DNA of 64,000 bases from contig JAAHGF010000030.1 of the NCBI GenBank assembly GCA_010672585.1, forward strand, positions 6,585 through 70,584, written 5' to 3'. The DNA comes from Okeania sp. SIO1I7 (GTDB lineage Bacteria > Cyanobacteriota > Cyanobacteriia > Cyanobacteriales > Microcoleaceae). Shown here piece by piece: positions 13,911-47,571 of the stretch. The notes below the pieces were generated by a model that worked only from the letters and a program-made list of their open reading frames with translations, was not told the DNA's origin and ran no database searches. Numbering within the stretch: the first letter of the stretch is position 1; every line of letters starts with the position of its first letter. The position numbers and the translations under genes were made by a program.

Positions 13911-15075
13911 TAGGTCAAAACGCTATATGTCTGTATGAAAAACTATAGTGCTACACTAAATATAGTATTTACCATGAAAAAATCTCTAATTTCTGTTGAA
14001 TATCCACAAAGGAAAGTAGGAAAAAAGAAGTTTCTGCTCCTGACTACTTTTAGTCATAAGTTATTGAGATACCAAAAGTAAGTGATTAGGTCAAAACGCT
14101 ATATGTCTGTAGAAAAAACTATAGTGCCACGCTAAATATAGTATTTACCATGAAAAAATCTCTAATTTCTGTTGAGTAATAAAATTCAGATATTTAATGG
14201 GTACCACAAGCAGATCATAATTAGGTCAAAGCGCTATATGTCTGTATAAAAAACTATAGTGCCACGCTAAATATAGTATTTACCATGAAAAAATCTCTAA
14301 TTTCTGTTGAGTAATAAAATTCAGATATTTAATGGAGACCACAAGCAGCTCATATTAGGTCAAAACGCTATATGTCTGTAGAAAAAACTATAGTGCCACG
14401 CTAAATATAGTATTTACCATGAAAAAATCTCTAATTTCTGTTGAGTAATAAAATTCAGATATTTAATGGGGACCACAAGCAGCTCATATTAGGTCAAAAC
14501 GCTATATGTCTGTATAAAAAACTATAGTGCCACGCTAAATATAGTATTTACCATGAAAAAATCTCTAATTTCTGTTGAGTAATAAAATTCAGATATTTAA
14601 TGGGTACCACAAGCAGCTCATATTAGGTCAAAACGCTATATGTCTGTATAAAAAACTATAGTGCCACGCTAAATATAGTATTTACCGTGAAAAAATCTCT
14701 AATTTCTGTTGAGTAATAAAATTCAGATATTTAATGGGTACCACAAGCAGCTCATATTAGGTCAAAACGCTATATGTTTGTATAAAAAACTATAGTGCCA
14801 CGCTAAATATAGTATTTACCATGAAAAAATCTCTAATTTCTGTTGAGTAATAAAATTCAGATATTTAATGGGTACCACAAGCAGCTCATATTAGGTCAAA
14901 GCGCTATATGTCTGTATAAAAAACTATAGTGCCACGCTAAATATAGTATTTACCATGAAAAAATCTCTAATTTCTTCTAATTTCTGTTGAATATCCACAA
15001 AGGAAAGTAGGAAAAAGGAAGTTTCTGTTCCTGACTACTTTTAGTCATAAGTTATTGAGATACCGAAAGTAGGTA
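13911..15075. repeat. Tandem array: eight units of about 134-175 bp
   Basis: Units begin TTAGGTCAAAACGCTATATG at about 13910, 14086, 14221, 14355, 14489, 14622, 14756 and 14891. The six inner units are about 134 bp. The two outermost carry a different, shared tail (ATATCCACAAAGGAAAGTAG to TTATTGAGATACC) and are about 175 bp. Units differ by only a few bases. Each contains an ACTATA...TATAGT mini-hairpin and the string ATGAAAAAATCTCTAATTTC, a potential 9-codon frame in inner units. No CRISPR-like repeat/spacer pattern is present. Confidence 0.92.
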
Positions 15076-42639: not shown

Positions 42640-42729
42640 CTATTTACTCAAGGAGTAATTGCAGAACAAGGTCTTAAACTAATTATTTATAATGTAGAGC
42701 AGGAGGTAATTATAGAATGGAAAAGTTAG
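42640..42729 (+). pseudogene. xisH 3' fragment (second), overlapping xisI
   Basis: Reads LFTQGVIAEQGLKLIIYNV and on to IIEWKS then TAG at 42727-42729. This matches the C-terminal strand of XisH. The full-length XisH of about 138 residues is absent. The fragment overlaps the xisI start by 13 bases, as intact xisH-xisI pairs do, so it may still supply translational context. Confidence 0.72.
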
Positions 42730-43052
42730 AAAAATACAGAAATTATATTGAGCAAATAATTAAAGAATACGGACAATATAAACCATCTTATGGAGAGGTA
42801 GAAGTACAAACAATTTTCGACAGGGAACGCGACCATTATCAACTTTTAAATGTTGGTTGGGATGGGAATGAAAGAATAGGAGGTTGTGTTTTACAAATAG
42901 ATATTAAAAATGAAAAAATCTGGATACAACATGATAATACAAAAATGGGTATTGCGGATGAATTAGTAGATTTAGTAGTGCCATCGTCAGATATTGTTTT
43001 GGCTTTTCATGCGCCTTATAAACGGAAATATACAGGTTTTGCTGTGTCGTAA
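42717..43052 (+). CDS. xisI: XisI-like protein (first copy)
   Basis: This 111-residue XisI family protein was named for the fdxN-element excision factors of Anabaena. Family signatures are FDRERDHYQLLNVGWDGNER, GGCVLQIDIKNEKIWIQHDN and PSSDIVLAFHAPYKRKYTGF. In the genome it normally follows xisH; here only a C-terminal xisH fragment remains. No recombinase gene is near. XisH resembles endonucleases, and the pair is now often considered a conflict or mobile-element module, which is inference. Normal length. Confidence 0.92.
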   Translation: MEKLEKYRNYIEQIIKEYGQYKPSYGEVEVQTIFDRERDHYQLLNVGWDGNERIGGCVLQIDIKNEKIWIQHDNTKMGIADELVDLVVPSSDIVLAFHAPYKRKYTGFAVS

Positions 43053-43806: not shown

Positions 43807-46746
43807 CTAAAACTTTTTACGAAAGATAAACTTGCACAGCAAATTATCATCTTCATCTTCTATGTGGAAATTCTTTATTCCAATTTTCTGGCCTGGAGTC
43901 CACAAACGCGGAAGTTCACCTTTTCTCATGTTTTGTAATTCAAACTCAGGCTCATCGTATGACAACCAATTATCTCCTTTTCGCCAACCTACCTCTTCGC
44001 CAAATTTATTCCAAATCTCTTGATTACCCCGTTGTGTCTGCTCGGAGTTAACAAAGATTTGCTTATAAATTTGCTTTTGAACTCTGAAGCCAAATTTACC
44101 GTTACTGTATTTCTCCCATAGTTGATCGACAGTGCGGAAGTCATCAGAAGGGAAGTTATCAATTGCTTCTAGTAATAAGAATAGTACATATTTTTTATTC
44201 AGTAAAAGATTTTTTACTACTACTCCTGCTCTTTCTACTATTAATACTACTATTCCTGCTCCTAATACTACTACTCCTGCTCCTAATACTATTAATACTG
44301 CTACTCCTTCTCCTAATACTACTGCTCCTGTTACTAGTGCTCCTGTTACTACTACTGCTACTACTACTGCTCCTGCTACTACTACTACTGCTACCCAGTA
44401 CACTACCTCTTGTAATCTTGATACTTTTCTTCCTGCTATTACTCTTGCTACTAATCCTACTCTTTCTGGTTTTAATCCGACTTTTTCTAATCTTGAATTC
44501 AGTTCTTTTAAGGATGACATTGACAATGAGTTTCTGTTGCTGCGATATACCTCTTCTATGTTAGGAGCTTCAAATATGAGGTTAAACGTTTCATCGTTAG
44601 CTTCTTTCCACTTACCAGCAGCTAGAAGTTGACGCAGCTTGAAGTATTTAGGAGATATTCCTTGTGGTGAAACTTGTAGAAGTTTTTTAATCGATCCGTC
44701 TTGAAAAACATACTTGTTATCAGTTTTTTGCTCATTATTCGGCGATCCAGTTGTCTGTTTTATCTCAGAGGAAAGTAACTGTTTGATTTTTGAGTAATTG
44801 TCGATCCAATAATTTGCATTGCCTTTTTCCTGATTATTTGCTGTAGATTCATCCCTTATAGCATTATTTGATTGAGGAGATAGATCGACTGCATATTTTT
44901 CTAAGTCAGCAAGTAGTTCTTGATTGTTTTTTAGCTCAAAAAGAAGACGGGGATATTTGAGCGTAAGTGCTGTAAACTTAGCTATTTGTTCTATAGTTAT
45001 TGGTTTCTCATTAGAAGTAACTCCAATAGCATAATAAGCAATATAAGTTCTGAGCCTAAGTACATTAATATATTGTTTTAAACGACGGGGATTATAATCA
45101 AAAAAAGGAGCAACCATCTCGATTACTTCAGCAAGTTTTTGTACATCTAAATCTTTATCAATTACAGGGAAAATAGCTAAATATGGAGGTGAATCCTCAG
45201 TTTCTTCAAGTTTTAAAATTTCTTCTATAATTTGAGGTTGTACTACTGCCTCAGTCTCTTCTTTTCGTGAAAATCTTTTCACAACTTTTTTTCCCAATTC
45301 TTTGAATATAAATTTTGCATCCTCAAATTGTTTGGCAAAATTAAAAGTTTCAGCAATTAAACTATAAGGAATCCCAAAAAATTGTTTTTCTTGATAAATT
45401 TCTGTATATATTTCTGTCTGATTTTCAGAGATTTTTTTGACAAAATTATTTAAAGTATTTTGAGAAGTTGCAGGAACATAGAATGATAATTGCACAAACT
45501 TTTCCAGGAAACTAAAACCATAATCAATCTGTTTACTCAATTTATCATTTCCCTTTTCCTGTGCTTGATTTTCTTTAGCAATTGAAGCTAGAAAAGGAAT
45601 CACATCTTTTTGTTTAAAAGTTATCGAAGCTGCCACCTTTTCCCGATCCATTCCCAAAATAAAAATCAAATTTGGGTCATCAGAAATCATCATATTTATG
45701 CCTTGTAATAAATCCGCAGCTTTACCCAACTCACAACGGTCAAGGTCATCAATAAAAACATAAATTTTCTCTTCTTTACCTACATAAGCACCAACAATTT
45801 TAGAGAAATCTTCGTGAAATTCTTCAATAAAAGCAGCTTCCTTTTCATAATCAGGAGACTCAAGATATAGAGTTAAATCCATTTTCTCGTCCCCAATTAA
45901 GTCTTTGATTATTCCGAAAAGTTTTCCTATTCCGGCAGCAGAACTACTAATTCCGACCAGTTGTAACAAAATATTTAAAGAAAGATTATTTGTATCCTCA
46001 TTATTTGTTGATTCTGAGTCTGAATTATCATTTTCTTTTGTCTCATTGTTAGTTGTTTCAGCCTCTTCTTTTTGACTTTTATCTTCCTCCTTTGAATCTG
46101 ATTTCAGAGTGTCAGCCAAATTTTCAGACAACTGATAAACTCCCTCAAAGCCAAATTTCCAGTATACAATTGGAATAGCTACAGTAATACTAGAAATCAA
46201 CGAAACCATCACCAAAGTCTGAATAGCTTTAAACGGTTTATCTTTAAAATTTAAACGATAAATAAATAGCTGAAACCGACTGTATAAATTATAGAAAAAA
46301 TCAGGAATATTACGATTTTTAGATAACTCTTCCAAAAAAGAAAGAGCAAAAGTCGCCCAAAGTGACTCAGATTTTTCATGTCGCCAAGCATTAAACCAAA
46401 CTGTTTGTGTTTTTTGTTTTAATCCTAATCTAATAAATTTACCAATATCTGATAGATTGCTGAAAATAATCTGGTCTTCTTTAATTTTCTGCCAAACCTC
46501 TGCTAAATCTTTTTTATCTAATTCTTCCGACTTCTTGAGAATCTCCTTTTCCAACTGTTTCATAAAAGAAGATTTACCACTACCCCATTCACCTTCGATA
46601 GAAATAGTCAGTGGAGGTTTTGTATTTTCATTAGTTAAAAATTCAGCCATAGCTATTACATAAGGAGTAAAACCAAGTTCATCTTCTGTTGTTGCTTGGT
46701 CTCCGAAAGTAATAATTTTGTTTGATTTATCTGTAGATTCTGACAT
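43807..46746 (-). CDS. KAP-family P-loop NTPase with interrupted C-terminal GUN4 domain
   Basis: This 979-residue protein starts with the KAP NTPase module: Walker A GEWGSGKSS (about residues 52-60), two membrane segments inside the domain (about 175-200 and 250-280, with an acidic Asn/Glu-rich loop between) and Walker B IYVFIDDLDRCE near 332. The GUN4 domain follows: KYFKLRQLLAAGKWKEANDE near 700 and, after an insert of about 135 residues, IDNFPSDDFRTVDQLWEKYS, GKFGFRVQKQIYK and FGEEVGWRKGDNWLSY (about 860-930). The insert contains a Val/Ala/Gly tract (about 779-844) encoded by (ACT/GCT/CCT)n. It is flanked by two xisI genes. A membrane-linked sensor or defence NTPase is inferred. GUN4 binds tetrapyrroles in its founding family. 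Confidence 0.88.
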   Translation of the reverse strand: MSESTDKSNKIITFGDQATTEDELGFTPYVIAMAEFLTNENTKPPLTISIEGEWGSGKSSFMKQLEKEILKKSEELDKKDLAEVWQKIKEDQIIFSNLSDIGKFIRLGLKQKTQTVWFNAWRHEKSESLWATFALSFLEELSKNRNIPDFFYNLYSRFQLFIYRLNFKDKPFKAIQTLVMVSLISSITVAIPIVYWKFGFEGVYQLSENLADTLKSDSKEEDKSQKEEAETTNNETKENDNSDSESTNNEDTNNLSLNILLQLVGISSSAAGIGKLFGIIKDLIGDEKMDLTLYLESPDYEKEAAFIEEFHEDFSKIVGAYVGKEEKIYVFIDDLDRCELGKAADLLQGINMMISDDPNLIFILGMDREKVAASITFKQKDVIPFLASIAKENQAQEKGNDKLSKQIDYGFSFLEKFVQLSFYVPATSQNTLNNFVKKISENQTEIYTEIYQEKQFFGIPYSLIAETFNFAKQFEDAKFIFKELGKKVVKRFSRKEETEAVVQPQIIEEILKLEETEDSPPYLAIFPVIDKDLDVQKLAEVIEMVAPFFDYNPRRLKQYINVLRLRTYIAYYAIGVTSNEKPITIEQIAKFTALTLKYPRLLFELKNNQELLADLEKYAVDLSPQSNNAIRDESTANNQEKGNANYWIDNYSKIKQLLSSEIKQTTGSPNNEQKTDNKYVFQDGSIKKLLQVSPQGISPKYFKLRQLLAAGKWKEANDETFNLIFEAPNIEEVYRSNRNSLSMSSLKELNSRLEKVGLKPERVGLVARVIAGRKVSRLQEVVYWVAVVVVAGAVVVAVVVTGALVTGAVVLGEGVAVLIVLGAGVVVLGAGIVVLIVERAGVVVKNLLLNKKYVLFLLLEAIDNFPSDDFRTVDQLWEKYSNGKFGFRVQKQIYKQIFVNSEQTQRGNQEIWNKFGEEVGWRKGDNWLSYDEPEFELQNMRKGELPRLWTPGQKIGIKNFHIEDEDDNLLCKFIFRKKF

Positions 46747-47235: not shown

Positions 47236-47571
47236 TCAGTTTTTCCCATAACGAGAAAATTGACGCTTAAAAGCAGAATGAAAACCGATAACTATATCTG
47301 AAGTAGGTACACCCATCTGCTCTAATCTCTCAGCAACAGACTCTTCCGTACCATTATATTGAATCCAAATTTTGCCATCTATAATATCAAAGTGCATCAC
47401 AGGACCAAATACTCGTTTATCCCCTTGCCAACCTACATAAGCTAATTGATAATGGTCACGTTCTGTATCAAATATTAATTCATCTTTTACTGTATTATTA
47501 GTATTTGTTATTTCTGCGTGTGAACTCAAAATTTCCTGAACAAATTGTCGATATTGTTCTAACTTATCCAT
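47236..47571 (-). CDS. xisI: XisI-like protein (second copy)
   Basis: This 111-residue paralogue of the protein at 42717 has FDTERDHYQLAYVGWQGDKR, MHFDIIDGKIWIQYNGTEES and PTSDIVIGFHSAFKRQFSRY. It is preceded on its own strand by the last codons of a xisH gene (KLEVISQWIS) that overlap its start. The two copies lie on either side of the KAP gene in opposite orientation. Divergence between them (about half the residues) argues against a recent duplication. Confidence 0.92.
   Translation of the reverse strand: MDKLEQYRQFVQEILSSHAEITNTNNTVKDELIFDTERDHYQLAYVGWQGDKRVFGPVMHFDIIDGKIWIQYNGTEESVAERLEQMGVPTSDIVIGFHSAFKRQFSRYGKN

Follow-up and report, generated by a model that had tools for sequence, protein, structure and literature searches.

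A KAP NTPase-GUN4 fusion in Okeania with a hydrophobic tract of A-ending codons inside the GUN4 domain

The locus and its product

The window (the whole stretch of 64,000 nucleotides of Okeania sp. SIO1I7 DNA analysed here) carries on its minus strand, at positions 43807-46746, a single open reading frame of 979 amino acids with zero internal stops. Pfam assigns residues 27-568 of the product to KAP_NTPase (PF07693, E 8.5e-28; 97.9 bits against a cut-off of 20) and finds GUN4 (PF05419, E 7.2e-23; 81.7 bits against a cut-off of 29.2) in two stretches, the best of which spans residues 858-947. With both domains above cut-off in one frame, the KAP-GUN4 fusion proposed in a preliminary description of this DNA is real. 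The features are as follows.

43807..46746, minus strand: KAP-GUN4 gene, 979 aa (ORF list, Pfam)
45043..46668, minus strand: KAP NTPase domain, residues 27-568 (Pfam PF07693, E 8.5e-28)
46567..46593, minus strand: GEWGSGKSS, residues 52-60, taken as Walker A (sequence; invariant in 13 aligned members)
46156..46233, minus strand: hydrophobic segment within KAP, residues 172-197 (Kyte-Doolittle peak 2.07)
45733..45765, minus strand: IYVFIDDLDRC, residues 328-338, taken as Walker B (sequence; FIDD and DRC invariant in 13 aligned members)
44578..44649, minus strand: GUN4 N-terminal half, residues about 700-723 (alignments)
44167..44577, minus strand: GUN4 loop insert, residues 724-860 (against 14-16 residues in three insert-less relatives)
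44179..44517, minus strand: hydrophobic tract of A-ending codons, residues 744-856 (99/113 codons, z 11.9; TRF 44215-44394)
43906..44175, minus strand: GUN4 C-terminal half, residues 858-947 (Pfam PF05419, profile positions 46-124)

The window protein contains both GEWGSGKSS, which we take to be Walker A, and IYVFIDDLDRC, which we take to be Walker B; across 13 aligned members the former is kept without change, as are the FIDD and DRC of the latter region. KAP NTPases are recognised by membrane segments lying between Walker A and Walker B. A single hydrophobic peak (residues 172-197, height 2.07) rises above a Kyte-Doolittle cut of 1.6 in the KAP domain, so that the several in-domain membrane segments described earlier are reduced to one candidate at this cut. 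The two GUN4 halves lie 137 residues apart, and in three insert-less relatives the corresponding gap measures 14-16; the earlier estimate of about 135 residues where about 20 are usual was right in substance.

Two XisI genes, a VIT/vWA gene, an S4-domain gene and a weak PIN match below cut-off are among the neighbours of the window gene; the eight neighbouring ORFs scanned with Pfam revealed neither a partner gene nor a defence island. The XisI genes flank it on both sides (window 42717-43052 and 47236-47571). Around other copies, most flanks hold, by eye, an SDR gene or transporter genes.

Distribution of the fusion and likeness to known systems

Among the matches listed when the family was searched with the window protein, 8 of the 61 genomes give KAP-level hits, their best E being 9e-138 or lower, and the best E in the remaining 53 is 5.5e-24 or weaker; GUN4 is present in the KAP genes of all eight. 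At least two genomes outside the family (G315 and G263) also hold KAP and GUN4 in one frame, in a survey of 291 genomes of the order that scored up to three candidates per genome and thus gives a lower bound for the number of fusions. The search for further KAP-GUN4 fusions proposed in the preliminary description has therefore succeeded, even if one family copy is apparently broken: the gene of G040 (L057:3460-5671) is split over two overlapping frames. A mobile origin was considered and set aside, viral contigs giving one KAP relative, by eye without GUN4. Plasmids gave 19 matching records, none reaching 80% query coverage.

GUN4 is not the only C-terminal partner of these NTPases. Five KAP relatives (L015, L016, L086, L087 and L088; the set leaves out the further such rows L089, L090 and L092, and G320) end in an FGE-like domain, confirmed by Pfam in both relatives run (L015 and L086). 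The best reading is that the C-terminal slot of the KAP NTPase is filled by GUN4 here and by an FGE/lectin-like domain in relatives. C-terminal lectin-type domains, some of them on KAP NTPases, have been proposed as antigen sensors (excerpts of PMC10907252). The window protein shares with the KAP-FGE proteins treated in those excerpts the KAP layout with a C-terminal module; it differs from these putative antigen sensors in having GUN4, not FGE, in the constant base of its tract, which is A, and in that a DNA search of its own genome turned up no second copy of the tract.

The genome itself (9.48 Mb) yields 23 GUN4 matches, 22 of them above the Pfam cut-off, with GUN4 also fused in NACHT, kinase plus macro, caspase and trypsin-like proteins and in macro/SLOG/pentapeptide/receiver proteins. 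These agree with fusions of cyanobacterial GUN4 to kinase, caspase, trypsin and TIR domains (excerpts of PMC7159879) and with the placing of GUN4 in conflict-type proteins (PMC8195603, in part). Like the former, the window gene appears to join GUN4 to a conflict-type protein; it differs from those described in the excerpts in its KAP NTPase partner and in the membrane-like insert within GUN4. A limited search of the literature returned no description of a KAP-GUN4 fusion, and KAP and GUN4 are named apart in the portion of PMC8195603 available to us. KAP thus joins the NTPases on which a GUN4 domain occurs, and GUN4 and FGE/lectin-type domains occupy the same C-terminal slot.

Resemblance to the KAP defence proteins QatA and PifA consists of the P-loop and FIDDLDRC motifs and the hydrophobic segment inside the domain, and the matches are weak (PifA 2.8e-16, PDC-S20 1.8e-14, QatA 2.6e-11; NCBIfam QatA 3.3e-14). 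The protein nevertheless differs from the Qat system: its score of 52.5 bits lies far below the cut-off of 600 of the NCBIfam QatA equivalog, and no Qat partner (qatBCD) was found by Pfam among the eight neighbouring ORFs scanned. The top PADLOC match is PD-T4-6 (2.1e-26), its best stretch lying over the GUN4 part (residues 849-956) and on the C-terminal stretch of the model. PD-T4-6 is a kinase-type defence protein, whereas the Pfam result on the 979-residue window protein contains no kinase domain.

Composition, copies and history of the insert

An insert of 137-163 residues separates the GUN4 halves in five copies, those of the window and of L010, L011, L013 and L060, in an alignment of the window protein with 17 others (18 in all, including some fragments and two KAP-FGE proteins; L060 is the same record as L017, judged by length and match). 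The same GUN4 loop is thus interrupted in five copies, which answers the question of conservation raised by the preliminary description. The edges of the insert are alike in all five, its borders are conserved among the four relatives, and every insert is open and hydrophobic. It looks as though the insert was inherited and is no chance disruption.

The preliminary description had placed a trinucleotide tract at 44213-44410, and a TRF repeat call at 44215-44394 agrees. Codon use in the tract exceeds chance: 99 of 113 codons end in A where 42.2 were expected from the rest of the gene (z 11.9). The corresponding counts are 106/136 in L010, 97/131 in L011, 91/129 in L013 and 94/130 in L060, so that all five inserts are 71-88% A-ending (z 9.3-11.9, expected 42-47), a level attained in 0 of 20000 simulations for each; expectations were amino-acid matched and drew on codon use outside the tract in each gene. 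Own-genome ORFs of at least 200 residues, taken as a sample, gave no second such A-ending island, and their hydrophobic segments had no A-ending bias. The pattern (GBA)7 is not enriched genome-wide (14 matches, 10 of them in the window tract, against 34 for the backward control); among the other own-genome matches the reading covers C15, by eye a transporter gene, and leaves out C18 and C37. Antisense ORFs over the tract are presumably an expected by-product of the A-ending codon run.

A second feature of the inserts is their low content of Glu codons: among the GNA codons of each of the five inserts, GAA accounts for 8-16% (32/277 pooled), whereas elsewhere in these genes its share is 56-65%. 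In SIO2B3, L141:3970-5334 holds a 124-codon Glu/Val/Ala tract in which 123 codons are GAA, GTA or GCA, 67 of the 123 being GAA; its gene looks by eye like a phage-tail baseplate protein and has zero Pfam matches. Because the A-ending rule also holds in this non-membrane tract, it marks triplet expansion and not membrane function, and low GAA is what separates the GUN4 inserts from the L141 tract. Low GAA could itself be a founder composition. The insert of SIO2C9 reaches the cut-off of no Pfam family, its matches to MgtE (0.0082) and holin (0.035) both lying below.

In nine of the ten insert pairs, with one tie, position 3 is less divergent than either of the other codon positions, the opposite of the KAP core, where position 3 diverges most in 6/6 pairs; between L010 and L013, for instance, differences at positions 1, 2 and 3 are 0.47, 0.46 and 0.28 in the insert and 0.07, 0.05 and 0.13 in the KAP core. 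Much of the insert pattern follows from composition. A DGR origin is disfavoured by the codon pattern and by a DNA search of the own genome, which finds the tract alone and no template copy. The internal periodicity was matched by codon shuffles in 2/500 cases for the window, 18/500 for L010, 144/500 for L011, 64/500 for L013 and 81/500 for L060, and slippage is accordingly clear in the window copy only.

When the DNA flanking 14 loci is compared, the window locus is found again in L010, L011, L012 and L013; for L017 the match is on the 3' flank. All five insert-bearing copies thus lie at one syntenic locus, one of them judged from one side only, and L012 (SIO3B5) is a sixth copy at the locus, without insert. 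The L012 frame is hydrophobic in the KAP linker at residues about 509-538, where the fraction of A-ending codons rises to 0.64 over a stretch of 50 codons. The window and L012 are 95-99% identical over the first 400 codons and 37-82% thereafter, and identity with L010, L011 and L013 likewise drops beyond about codon 400, which indicates that the C-terminal part has its own history. In a GUN4 tree the four other insert-bearing copies cluster (0.962) and are then joined by the window copy (0.984), whereas a tree built on KAP residues 523-690 puts the SIO3B5 copy, which lacks the insert, nearer to those four, with the window copy further out (0.943). The history of the gene, as read from these comparisons, is mosaic.

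A single origin of the insert is suggested by the same comparisons: homology of the window insert to the other four would rest on site, locus, tree and codon bias. It is somewhat unlikely that the window insert is instead an independent product of triplet expansion in this permissive loop, since the locus is the same, the GUN4 halves group in the tree, the insert edges are similar and the codon bias is shared. Several results nevertheless speak for it. A profile built from the four other inserts, run against 60 genomes, matches those four genomes and misses the window insert, and the start of the window insert has no significant relative in the 60 genomes (next best E 0.026). In pairs with the window insert, the agreement at position 3 does not exceed what unrelated sequence of like composition gives, and that at positions 1 and 2 exceeds it modestly at best, one pair being worse. 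Furthermore, an own-genome macro-SLOG-GUN4-pentapeptide-receiver-receiver protein (L009:4365-7256) has an unrelated GUN4 insert at roughly the corresponding point of the profile. In view of position 3 and the KAP tree we place more weight on an independent window insert and less on our best explanation, given below.

Fold, selection and possible function

AlphaFold models (11 sequences) have a mean pLDDT of 53.2 for the window protein and 47.8 for L010. The window insert is modelled as three short and two long helices, mostly with pLDDT below 60, and that of L010 as four long helices, mostly below 50; the best GUN4 blocks reach 70-84. The top Foldseek matches are GUN4 structures (E 0.028 over 72 columns, and E 1.3), all partial, and a profile search of solved structures returned five distinct sequences, all GUN4 entries (1z3x and 1z3y are labelled otherwise there and are Gun4 in the Foldseek result). 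The structure prediction proposed earlier gave two poor models. The C-terminal GUN4 half of the insert-bearing copies retains its conserved residues. GUN4 may still fold despite the insert. Of the doubts voiced in the preliminary description, namely that the fusion might have no parallel, the insert be unique and the halves unable to pack, the first two have fallen, and the third may still apply.

As far as dN/dS ratios indicate, which codon bias makes rough, the family evolves fast and the insert fastest. The insert gives 0.65-1.86 over 10 pairs. Ratios for the four insert-bearing relatives are 0.24-0.32 in the KAP core (3 pairs) and 0.41-1.01 in the GUN4 core (6 pairs, median 0.77), while insert-less copies have a KAP-core median of 0.50 (28 pairs) and a GUN4 median of 0.51 (36 pairs). 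The higher GUN4 values in insert-bearing pairs are compatible with decay. Triplet expansion may accordingly have wrecked GUN4, leaving a decaying C-terminus on a protein that works, if at all, through KAP. We regard this as unlikely: it accounts for the poor models, the high dN/dS of the insert in 10/10 pairs, the fast GUN4 of insert-bearing copies and the nearly pure repeat of the window tract, but not for an insert with conserved borders among four relatives, nor for the residues kept in the GUN4 C-terminal half. The possibility, raised in the preliminary description, that the repeat breaks the domain is weakened because the stretch is open and hydrophobic in 5/5 copies, and keeps some standing from the fast GUN4 and the poor models.

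Our best explanation, tentative and at close to an even chance, is that the hydrophobic insert was fed by in-frame triplet expansion and kept as membrane hairpins in a conflict-type KAP-GUN4 NTPase. The protein would be a conflict- or immune-type membrane NTPase of the KAP family that carries GUN4 as its C-terminal module. Among Okeania and relatives, a single syntenic lineage would have acquired, at an insertion-tolerant loop of GUN4, a hydrophobic insert created and turned over by in-frame expansion of A-ending triplets (GTA, GCA, GGA, TTA, ATA) and held in frame and low in charge by selection. With membrane helices in even number (about four for SIO2C9, about two for the window copy), both GUN4 halves would stay cytoplasmic. 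The C-terminal module may then sense a ligand or partner to which the KAP ATPase responds, and the insert may anchor the sensor to the membrane or perturb the membrane. What lies at the locus is a real, apparently inherited insert variant of a GUN4 fusion, to which this putative mechanism would apply.

It is tempting to speculate further that the protein is an immune-type NTPase with a hypervariable membrane module whose diversity would come from in-frame triplet expansion and not from a retroelement: the first two bases of each codon would change while the A in third place stays, always giving a small-residue hydrophobic helix inside the sensor domain. We consider this quite improbable.

A membrane NTPase sensor gated by a tetrapyrrole, as first proposed, would have GUN4 bind porphyrin or bilin and control KAP. 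Membership of the GUN4 family (Pfam) and the suggestion that fused GUN4 domains sense tetrapyrroles (PMC7159879, in part) are in keeping with it. Phe196 and Arg214 of the Synechocystis protein are porphyrin contacts (PMC8967248, in part). We set their approximate positions in the own-genome housekeeping GUN4 (L125) by spacing. In the window copy and its four insert-bearing relatives, no equivalents are seen at the aligned columns, the alignment being loose there. Tetrapyrrole gating is, at the level of sequence, unsupported, and we hold it very unlikely. Several other fused GUN4 domains also differ at these columns.

Triplet expansion seems to be the source of a membrane-like segment inside a folded domain, and the codon pattern makes the origin of such a segment readable and testable across strains. 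Elsewhere in the window, positions 14085-14975 hold a 134-base tandem array (6.6 copies, 97% matches).
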